Position numbers and translations under genes: made by a program
Notes under the pieces: generated by a model
What the model saw: only the letters and a program-made list of their open reading frames with translations
Databases searched by the model: none
What the model was told of the DNA's origin: nothing
DNA from: Ferruginibacter sp.
GTDB taxonomy: Bacteria; Bacteroidota; Bacteroidia; Chitinophagales; Chitinophagaceae
Reading direction: 5' to 3'
NCBI GenBank assembly: GCA_013141435.1
Contig: JABFQZ010000019.1
Span: forward strand, 1 to 64,000
DNA: 64,000 bases
Part shown: one piece after another, positions 8,930-58,924 of the stretch
How positions within the stretch are numbered: position 1 is the first letter of the stretch
Layout: every line of letters starts with the position of its first letter

Positions 8930-9262
8930 TTAATTTGGACAAATGGCTAAATAATAGGGGCGAATGGTAATGGGTATATTTATTTGGGTGCAGAATTTTT
9001 AAAAATTGGATATTTAACTTGAAAAAAAGTTTAGTAAAAAATGATAAGTATCTATTCTAAGGATAAAGATTGCAAACAGTTGATTTTAATATTGAGATGA
9101 TGAATATGATTATTTGTTGTGAAAATGGAATATTATATTTAAAGATGCCCAAAGTGCTAAATTTGAACGGAGCGTCGCCACCAATGCTCAATCAAGGCTT
9201 TAAAGCTCAAAAAAACACTTAAAAAAATGCCATGGGAATTTTTATTTTCGCTACCCAAACCT
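8930..9262. other. Intergenic region between divergent receptor and atpD
   Basis: AT-rich, with no coding signature. I recognise only the flanking regulatory elements (8869-8929 and 9263-9270). Confidence 0.4.
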
Positions 9263-9299: not shown

Positions 9300-10814
<1,515 letters not shown>

Positions 10815-10819
10815 TACGG

Positions 10820-10915
10820 AGTACTAAGTATTGAGTATTAAGACTGGGTCTCACGGAAAGTACTGAATACTCAAAATGGACTAGTCTAAATACTAAGTAC
10901 TCAATACTAAATACT
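10820..10915. repeat. Long imperfect hairpin of AGTACT/AGTATT words between atpD and the four-helix-bundle gene
   Basis: The left arm AGTACTAAGTATTGAGTA (10820-10837) matches, with two mismatches, the reverse complement of the right arm's TACTCAATACTAAATACT (10898-10915). AGACT (10840-10844) and AGTCT (10883-10887) extend the pairing. The roughly 38-bp middle has further AGTACTGAATACTC words. The right-arm word recurs at 11373-11390 ahead of atpC with one difference, and part of it occurs at 62237-62251. Confidence 0.75.
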
Positions 10916-10920
10916 GCACT

Positions 10921-11286
10921 ATGGGGATGCACAATTTTAGAGAACTTAAAATTTGGCAGAGGGCAATGGATTTAGCGGTAGAGGTTTATAAAATAGTAGA
11001 TGAGTTTTTTCCTAAAGAGGAGAGATTTGGTTTATCTGCTCAAGTAAAGAAAAGTGCGGTTTCAGTACCAAGTAATATTTCTGAAGGAGCTGGTAGAGCA
11101 ACAAACAATAAGTTTAGATATTTTCTTGAAATTTCAATAGGTTCAAATAATGAATTACAAAACCTACTGGAACTTGCAAGAAGATTTAATTATATAACAC
11201 AGGAGAGAACAGATAAAATTATCGATGAAGCTGTCCAAGTTTATAAAATGACACTTTCATTTTATAATTCATTAATGCCAAATTAG
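10921..11286 (+). CDS. Four helix bundle protein (23S rRNA intervening-sequence protein family)
   Basis: 121 residues, matching the S23/IVP-type four-helix-bundle family: FRELKIWQRAMDLAVEVY, then FPKEERFGLSAQVKKSAVSVP, NISEGAGR, and FLEISIGSNNELQNLLELARR. The ATG at 10927 (MHNFRELKIW) is an equally good start. The family is related in fold to Avd of diversity-generating retroelements. Its members are often found in rRNA intervening sequences or scattered through genomes, and the molecular role is unsettled. Here it interrupts atpD-atpC, an otherwise tight pair, with near-identical 18-bp words just before its own start and before atpC's start. I infer acquisition as a small module. Confidence 0.85.
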   Translation: MGMHNFRELKIWQRAMDLAVEVYKIVDEFFPKEERFGLSAQVKKSAVSVPSNISEGAGRATNNKFRYFLEISIGSNNELQNLLELARRFNYITQERTDKIIDEAVQVYKMTLSFYNSLMPN

Positions 11287-11370
11287 ATAATATTAAATAA
11301 TTGTATAAAATTGTAAAAAGTAATATCTAGCTATTTATTAAAAAGCTTTAATTTAAAAAGAGCTAATCTA

Positions 11371-11398
11371 TATACTCAATACTAATTACTCAATACTT
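11371..11398 (+). repeat. Direct copy of the TACTCAATACT word ahead of atpC
   Basis: TACTCAATACTAATTACT (11373-11390) differs at one base from TACTCAATACTAAATACT (10898-10915). A further CAATACTTT follows. The two copies lie 5 and 9 bp before the start codons of the four-helix-bundle gene and atpC. Confidence 0.7.
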
Positions 11399-11399
11399 T

Positions 11400-11651
11400 A
11401 TGACTTTAGAAATATTAACACCCGAAAAAAAAATATTTAGTGGCGAAGTGTTTGGCGTACAATTGCCAGGTATTACGGGTTTGTTTGAAGTATTAGACAA
11501 GCATGCACCACTTGTAAGTGCACTAAAAACTGGCAAGTTGAAAATTTTGAAAGATAAAACAACCACAAACTCTTATAACATACAAAGTGGTTTTGTAGAA
11601 GTAATTAACAATAAAACTACGGTGTTGGTAGAAGGTGCAGTAGAATTATAA
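11400..11651 (+). CDS. atpC: F1Fo ATP synthase subunit epsilon, short form
   Basis: 83 residues. Only the N-terminal beta-sandwich is present (LEILTPEKKIFSGEVFGVQLPG, FEVLDKHAPLVSALKTGKLKI, SGFVEVINNKTTVLVEGAVEL). The C-terminal helical domain found in about 130-residue epsilon subunits is missing, as is usual in Bacteroidota. It joins gamma to the c-ring in the rotor. Without the helical arm, the classical epsilon-type inhibition of ATP hydrolysis is unlikely. It follows the inserted gene, so its expression probably depends on readthrough from atpD. A terminator lies 22 bp downstream. Confidence 0.93.
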   Translation: MTLEILTPEKKIFSGEVFGVQLPGITGLFEVLDKHAPLVSALKTGKLKILKDKTTTNSYNIQSGFVEVINNKTTVLVEGAVEL

Positions 11652-58521: not shown

Positions 58522-58597
58522 TTTTATTTTTATTGTAAGTTGTAAGTAATAAGTTGTAAGTTTTTATCAACTCTCAACTGCTATCTGCCAACTGCTT

Positions 58598-58867
58598 TTA
58601 TCCTTTTTTGTTTGAGTGTCCTCTAAAATTTCTTGTTGGTGCAAATTCTCCTAATTTATGACCTACCATAAACTCTGTAACATAAACTGGTATAAACTTA
58701 TTACCATTATGCACTGCAAAAGTTTGTCCTACAAAATCAGGAGATATTGTACTTCTACGGCTCCAAGTTTTAATTACTCCTTTTTTACTTTTTCCTTCTC
58801 CCATTGCAAGAACTTTTGCTTCAAGTTTTGCTTCAATGTAAGGACCTTTTTTTAATGAACGACTCAT
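58598..58867 (-). CDS. rpsS: 30S ribosomal protein S19
   Basis: 89 residues. [40 protein letters not shown] and [20 protein letters not shown] are the invariant S19 stretches. It sits in the 30S head. Confidence 0.97.
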
Positions 58868-58924
58868 ATTTTTTATTTTTGTTTATTTTCCCAAATTAAG
58901 AATGGGATATTTTAACAATGAAAA

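Follow-up and report, generated by a model that had tools for sequence, protein, structure and literature searches.

What kind of unit lies between atpD and atpC in the window (the whole stretch of 64,000 nucleotides that was analysed), and whether it arrived there recently or has long occupied the site, are the questions raised by this locus. The feature is best explained as a hairpin-armed IVP element inside the essential ATP-synthase operon, where it fills the gap between two co-directional genes. An S23/IVP-family gene had been placed between atpD and atpC by the earlier note on this DNA, and this is confirmed by the ORFs and by profile matches to PF05635 (IVP; 121.1 bits, cut-off 33.8) and TIGR02436 (116.1 bits, cut-off 24). 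The same note had picked out two 18-bp words, TACTCAATACTAAATACT (10898–10915, 5 bp before the IVP ATG) and TACTCAATACTAATTACT (11373–11390, 9 bp before atpC); both positions are right, 17 of the 18 bases are identical as claimed, and the inverse word is present after atpD (10820–10837). The features of the region are:

9309–10814, + strand: atpD, F1F0 ATP synthase beta, upstream host gene (ORF; Pfam ATP-synt_ab, 217.6 bits)
10820–10844, + strand: 5' arm, heptad array AGTACTAAGTATTGAGTATTAAGAC, C-poor (sequence)
10884–10915, + strand: near 3' arm GTCTAAATACTAAGTACTCAATACTAAATACT, G-poor (sequence, word match, RNA fold)
10921–11286, + strand: IVP / S23 four-helix-bundle protein gene (PF05635, TIGR02436, structure model)
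11372–11397, + strand: far 3' arm ATACTCAATACTAATTACTCAATACT (sequence, word match)
11400–11651, + strand: atpC, ATP synthase epsilon, downstream host gene (ORF; Pfam ATP-synt_DE_N, 81.1 bits)

The three reading frames, atpD, IVP and atpC, are all on the + strand and the arms fit closely between them: the 5' arm begins 5 bp 3' of the atpD stop, the near 3' arm ends 5 bp 5' of the first IVP ATG, and the far 3' arm stops 2 bp short of the atpC start. The IVP ORF encodes 121 aa, or 119 aa if begun at the second ATG (10927), which may equally be the start. The 18-mer was considered as the repeat unit and rejected, the two words being pieces of arrays of a degenerate heptad, TACTNAW. Before the IVP the array reads TACTAAG TACTCAA TACTAAA TACT and before atpC it reads TACTCAA TACTAAT TACTCAA TACT, while the array after atpD is the reverse complement of these. 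The two direct copies emphasised by the earlier note are real, but the general architecture (described below) is one of inverted arms. The element of the window departs from it in having a second 3' arm: the near one precedes the IVP start and the far one precedes atpC. Complementary ends able to form a stem, as in rRNA intervening sequences, are present as the arms and a predicted hairpin, although the site is between atpD and atpC and not inside an rRNA gene. In the predicted RNA fold the 5' arm (10820–10844) is paired with the near 3' arm (10884–10915); the interval 10812–10925 gives z -3.73 (200 shuffles), and the longer interval 10800–11420 gives z -2.73 (20 shuffles). The best predicted fold in the window closes 5' of the IVP and not around it, and the far arm before atpC may be an alternative partner for the 5' arm.

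Modelling of the IVP by AlphaFold2, as a monomer only, gave four helices (pLDDT 95.6). The closest PDB entry is 2gsc (TM 0.84–0.90), followed by 2rld, and the model has the four-helix bundle of both; the 2gsc relative is a homopentamer (Lin et al., as cited in a passage of PMC4990558). The protein is under purifying selection: among 73 IVP pairs at 75% identity or more, 38 had usable dS, and all 38 show dN/dS below 0.3 (median 0.078). At L111, L123, L127, L147, L156, L158, L164 and L168 the IVP lies in a frame of about 280–315 codons, more than twice the usual length, and these genes possibly carry a second domain. A role as a defence system was considered and rejected, as PADLOC gave no hit.

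The model also matches Avd (4dwl; TM 0.74–0.76, E 0.1–0.43) and a chain of a DGR ribonucleoprotein. Together with weak matches to Avd profiles, this fold likeness is what favours an Avd-like protein acting with a reverse transcriptase in DGR-like retro-mobility. The profile scores, however, are under their cut-offs (26.4 vs 40; 26.3 vs 80), and no RVT_1 domain was found in the host genome (G000, 100% complete) or in 9 of the 10 IVP-bearing relatives searched, so that a resident retro-mechanism is unlikely. The retroelement-linked mobility that the earlier note had thought plausible finds no backing in this search, which was for the RVT_1 family alone; a resident retroelement was rejected on the same absence, and we regard the Avd reading as scarcely credible.

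The junction itself was compared across the genus. The atpC search gave a match in 54 of 59 genomes (host included) and 30 atpD-atpC loci (again with the host) were examined; two further junctions (L074, L087) entered the set by way of the IVP search, which had found an IVP at each, giving 32. An IVP is present at 7 of the 32, or at 5 of the 30 not chosen for an IVP. The empty sites that were looked for were seen at the other 25 junctions, with gaps of 9–136 bp. Such empty sites, and the two near-identical direct words, would suit the proposal of the earlier note that a small unit of repeat plus ORF had recently been inserted at atpD-atpC next to a pre-existing repeat. The phylogenetic data point the other way. 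The six atp-site IVPs that were placed in the IVP tree group together as a single clade (100/96), and atp-site IVPs are 43–67% identical to that of the host. On the AtpD+AtpC tree the sister of the host is G031 (99/91), which keeps arms of the same word (GTATTGA) around a short spacer with no IVP, and next comes G006 (93/84), in which the IVP is broken, being split between two frames. Because of the single atp-site clade, the IVP-less hairpin and the broken gene, the IVP is read, from these alignments and trees, as an old, sporadic occupant of the site that has been lost or broken repeatedly. Its presence on the host tree needs 5 changes, 3 of them forced by well-supported branches, and presence followed by loss fits the site better than fresh gain. 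Among the 96 loci compared, no IVP at least 95% identical to that of the host lies at another site of a close relative. A recent insertion is thus improbable. In the atpD-atpC gap of two relatives (L054/L055, genomes G011 and G005) the IVP-less hairpins differ by exactly one heptad in each arm; this is the one pair with coupled 7-nt changes in both arms, which are not the rule in 16 others.

The word of the atp element is not confined to this junction. Eight matches at up to 3 mismatches occur in the window (0.45 expected; 8 reached in 0 of 100 shuffles), and 29 at up to 2 mismatches occur in the host genome, against 2 for the reversed control. Four of the 29 adjoin IVP genes and 25 do not. 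The host carries five IVP genes, three of them with in-frame stops; two of the five (on C34 and C42) are flanked by the atp-type word and the remaining three by other words. The tie between repeats and four-helix-bundle genes elsewhere, which the earlier note proposed to check, holds for other IVP genes but not always for this word. A scan of 847 kb of the host for inverted repeats yielded, by eye, mainly terminator-like hairpins. Arrays without an IVP include a GTATTGA hairpin (G000:C1:60860, L013) in the ATP synthase operon, where its neighbours look by eye to be atpF and atpH, an array in the window at 58522–58924 (GTAAGTTGTAAGTAATAAGTTG ... CAACTCTCAACTG) whose word is unlike the atp one, and a long ACATTTT heptad array after a gene on contig C13 of G000 (95549–95792).

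That the arms are MITE- or REP-like sequences moved by a Y1 (RAYT) or other transposase, with the IVP as a passenger, was also weighed, as the host carries a single clear Y1_Tnp gene besides two weak ones. By eye the flanks of the clear gene (L065) have no heptad arms and carry other palindromes instead, and the words differ between the IVP elements of one genome. REP families have one conserved sequence each, unlike the IVP-element words, and this explanation appears very improbable. The RAYT-like gene of L065 (G000:C21:144369 on) is followed by palindromic repeats (CCCCGTCGGGG / CCCTTCGGGA) of a separate repeat family. Another repeat, containing GCGTCGC(C)A, lies at about 9165–9205 of the window (GGAGCGTCGCCACCAATGCTCAA), with similar copies, by eye, close to other intergenic stretches of the genome (L009, L015 and L065).

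Relatives of the IVP gene are very common: PF05635 matches were found in 89 of 93 genus genomes (87 over the cut-off) and in 235 of 296 sampled phylum genomes (221 over the cut-off). The genus set was drawn from 114 loci, the best-scoring part of a longer list, which gave 117 IVP frames (100 full-length), and the 96 IVP loci with at least 150 bp of flank on both sides were used. The phylum set has 30 usable loci, and the named set began with 80 loci and 83 frames, of which 71 were usable (61 Bacteroidota and 10 others, the latter labelled Clostridia, Selenomonadales, Ruminococcus, Planctomycetaceae, Desulfobacteraceae, Syntrophobacterales, SAR324, Chlorobiota, Alphaproteobacteria and one plain 'bacterium'). 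An inverted score was obtained by matching the upstream flank to the reverse complement of the downstream flank, for each locus with itself and for crossed pairs (284 in the genus). The genus median is 14 for self and 8 for crossed comparisons; 64 of the 96 loci exceed the crossed 95th percentile, and 32 are not above the control. The same level is exceeded at 11 of the 30 phylum loci, and in the named set at 31 of the 61 Bacteroidota and 9 of the 10 others, which are all titled MAGs, some perhaps misbinned. A minority of loci also have raised direct repeats: the genus median is 8, with an upper tail (90th percentile 12.5 vs 10 crossed), and in the named set 10 of the 61 Bacteroidota and 2 of the 10 others exceed the crossed 95th percentile.

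The flanks also have the 7-nt period of heptanucleotide repeats. Self-match in the genus peaks at lags 7, 14 and 21 (lag 7, 0.368 vs 0.275 for the window control), and the 30 phylum loci give 0.345 at lag 7. Lag-7 arrays occur in 45 of 96 (5') and 42 of 96 (3') genus flanks, where the next best lags have 12 and 15, and in 31 of 71 and 35 of 71 named flanks (next best 9 and 8). The median length of 153 arrays is 35 nt, which gives weak support to the idea of five heptads per pentamer, but four heptads are commonest (43 arrays), followed by five (36). The 76 5' arms hold 67 different words, yet the arms within one element match. Their bases are biased (8–11% C in 5' arms, 8–9% G in 3' arms) and the resulting polarity, a C-poor 5' arm and a G-poor 3' arm, is seen in 29 of 36 genus and 23 of 32 named elements (52 of 68 together), with full reversal in 0 of 36 and 2 of 32. 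This polarity is oriented with the transcript, as seen from the sequences; the IVP is co-directional with both neighbours at 75 of 89 genus and 60 of 66 named scorable loci. The RNA duplex predicted between the upstream and downstream flanks has a median energy of -52 kcal/mol in the genus set and -55 in the named set, vs about -40 for crossed pairs, and at 30 of 96 genus and 23 of 71 named loci the energy is under the crossed 5th percentile. Single-linkage clustering of the 167 genus and named proteins at 55% left 20 clusters. The inverted signal was present in 15 of them, lag-7 arrays were present on 10 and 11 of the 20 flanks (next best lag 3 and 3), and the polarity was as stated in 6 of 10, mixed in 4 and reversed in none. 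As regards a possible location in rRNA, open frames of at least 70 codons lie on both sides of the IVP at 155 of the 167 loci; the other 12 have only 154–260 bp on the empty side, ended by a contig or stretch edge. Judged from the flanks compared, the anatomy around IVP genes is real and general, and recurs both within Bacteroidota and at loci whose labels name other phyla.

How such elements are inherited can be followed in pairs of loci. Where two IVPs have no neighbour in common, words are shared by 11 of 26 pairs at 60–70% identity (reversed control 1 of 26) and by 8 of 8 above 80%, where the reversed control also passes 4 of 8; at least one pair counted as lacking a shared neighbour, L123/L127, is really a single site cut by a contig end. 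Below 60% identity 1.5–6.5% of IVP pairs share words, and word similarity, on this measure, follows IVP similarity. For same-site pairs with an IVP identity of 0.3–0.5 the arm match is 14.3 within and 8.0 across elements, the former being higher in 36 of 40 pairs and lower in 3, with a smaller effect in closer pairs; by these scores both arms change together at one site. On the IVP tree, 12 of the 15 largest groups of same-site loci are each set apart from all other tips by a single branch. Flanks are shared by all 13 phylum pairs at 85% identity or more (among the pairs listed), and a neighbour by 24 of 32 genus pairs at 80% or more. When near-identical copies inside a single genome were sought among phylum loci, the best 40 pairs contained one old same-genome pair (67%) and otherwise orthologues that share a site. 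The comparisons show mostly vertical inheritance of the IVP at a site, with losses, and movement of the unit is, on the same counts, not frequent.

There are nevertheless cases in which the arms and IVP behave as a unit. Two loci of one genome bin (L153/L159, both in G101, 78% complete and with 4% contamination) are 83% identical over 744 bp covering the arms and IVP, with unrelated flanks, and in two other genomes (L086/L088) an IVP and its adjoining arms are common to both while the sites are different. IVPs at what by eye is an argC-argD junction and on the upstream side of argH likewise have words and clade in common. A further case is that of the sister tips G008 and G078, whose atpD genes agree at 95% as far as the stop codon and whose downstream sides agree at 94% over the first 400 bases (86% over 1450). 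Between these similar flanks the units of arms and IVP differ (IVP 47% aa), and the two IVPs fall in different subclades, in conflict with the AtpD/AtpC tree. In the remaining six same-site pairs whose flanks reach 90% identity the IVPs are at least 90.6% identical, and at L104/L145 the flanks have 81% in common and the IVPs 30%. The best interpretation of these patterns is that the complete unit is now and then exchanged or relocated.

Control genes (at least 100 aa, from three genus genomes, unmatched to the IVP for length or operon position) were scored for an inverted flank score of 12 or more plus a lag-7 array on either side. This combination was found for 4 of 667 host genes (one being the IVP of the window), 0 of 165 in G073 and 1 of 160 in G018, a total of 5 of 992, and for 39 of 96 genus and 28 of 71 named IVP genes. 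Taken by itself, the inverted score discriminates less well in the AT-rich host, where 55 of 667 genes reach it. Heptad arrays do not need an IVP, because arrays without one are common, in 36 of 513 host intergenic regions (a count that takes in the two arrays of the atp element), 16 of 107 and 6 of 120. Most are single, with an inverted partner in 8 of 36, 4 of 16 and 2 of 6 (reversed control 4, 0 and 0). For two words, all genomes in which a word-bearing IVP was seen (4 of 4 and 5 of 5) fall among the 14 and 15 of 93 having at least 4 matches, under thresholds set after seeing the counts and with relatedness ignored. Further word-bearing IVPs may exist undetected in other genomes, some genomes have a high reversed control, and G073 drops to 3 matches for the second word once its own arm is removed.

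The frequency of IVP-less arrays in the same genomes, and the mostly vertical descent of the IVPs, would agree with an ordinary, perhaps regulatory, host gene and heptad arrays that are neutral products of slippage, both tolerated at operon junctions. Heptanucleotide repeats are over-represented in many bacteria and polymerase slippage has been proposed for them (sections of PMC4679880 and PMC4692102). Such an explanation would not by itself account for lag-7 arrays on both sides of 29 of 96 and 22 of 71 IVP genes as against 6 of 992 of the unmatched control genes, for the general lack of inverted partners in IVP-less arrays, for arms that match better inside one element than across elements, or for a unit relocated along with its arms. 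It is considered unlikely.

Instead, the same layout with changing words around many IVP relatives points to an overlooked kind of genetic element. The outer anatomy is fixed and the words are element-specific, and therefore a nucleic-acid ligand is predicted for each IVP. It is proposed that the two arms base-pair in the operon mRNA, around or just before the IVP frame, as do the complementary ends of intervening sequences in 23S rRNA. The paired arms would then be cut or processed by RNase III or an enzyme like it, so that the element is tolerated by the host genes. An IVP oligomer, possibly a pentamer as in the solved relative, may bind the heptads of the element that encodes it. Such binding might keep the arrays matched and help the unit to spread between junctions, in a homing-like way and without a resident reverse transcriptase. 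In the window, the two 3' arms could compete for the single 5' arm. This account as a whole, from the hairpin-armed element and mRNA arm pairing to own-heptad binding and homing-like spread, is probably correct in our view, with moderate confidence. A bolder version, possible but rather doubtful, is that IVP genes are the coding part of widespread homing-like hairpin elements of bacterial operon junctions that have neither nuclease nor reverse transcriptase, and that the IVP ring reads, rewrites and spreads its own heptad array. Each lineage would then own a private, evolving word on both arms, with IVP-less copies seeded elsewhere in the genome, and the intervening sequences of rRNA would be a special case, recognised before the rest.

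Several known systems resemble parts of this element. Heptanucleotide tandem repeats, such as the cyanobacterial heptamers, TAACTGA in Beggiatoaceae and Bacteroidetes and GGGAATC in Xanthomonas, similarly have a degenerate 7-nt unit, are intergenic, often lie near start codons and are sometimes inverted (passages of PMC4679880 and PMC4692102). In contrast, the inverted pairs described here frame IVP genes and use many words, and a term search of those two papers returned no mention of four-helix-bundle or IVP genes. The heptad arms might account for part of the scattered heptad repeats. No tie of IVP genes to heptad arms was found in the literature covered (parts of PMC5524665 and PMC10910872 among it; most subscription journals and bioRxiv fall outside), nor was the hairpin-arm anatomy found described, around what is a very common gene. 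The Avd protein of diversity-generating retroelements has the four-helix-bundle fold in common with the IVP, and its homology to PF05635 is noted in PMC10053308 (in part), but the present protein scores below the Avd cut-offs and its genome is without an RVT_1 reverse transcriptase. S23/IVP genes are described in PMC4990558 (in part) as having no known function. They have been seen in cas loci, one of them between cmr3 and cmr2 in Pleurocapsa (a passage of PMC3936711), and an IVP element might explain such genes inside operons without their belonging to those systems.

The closest likeness is to the 23S rRNA intervening sequences with an S23 ORF in Leptospira and Coxiella, in which an S23/IVP gene likewise lies between stem-forming complementary ends, with RNase III cutting as a precedent (passages of PMC4990558). 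Sporadic presence, and inserts with and without an ORF, are further points in common (PMC4990558; PMC11270868 for CPR rRNA inserts; both in part); in sections of the latter, IVPs occur here and there at rRNA insert sites where homing endonucleases prevail, and some of the inserts have no ORF. Reductive evolution has been described for the Coxiella ORF, whereas the present IVP is under purifying selection. The present element differs further in sitting between protein genes of an operon and in having arms made of 7-nt unit arrays with a word that differs per element, heptads having been read at the present loci alone. Homing introns and endonuclease genes form site-faithful lineages with patchy presence, exchange without flanks, and loss, and the IVP is likewise site-faithful, patchy, exchanged without its flanks and lost; the IVP is not known to have a nuclease or ribozyme. 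The best reading of the element between atpD and atpC is that it is the operon-junction counterpart of an rRNA intervening sequence.
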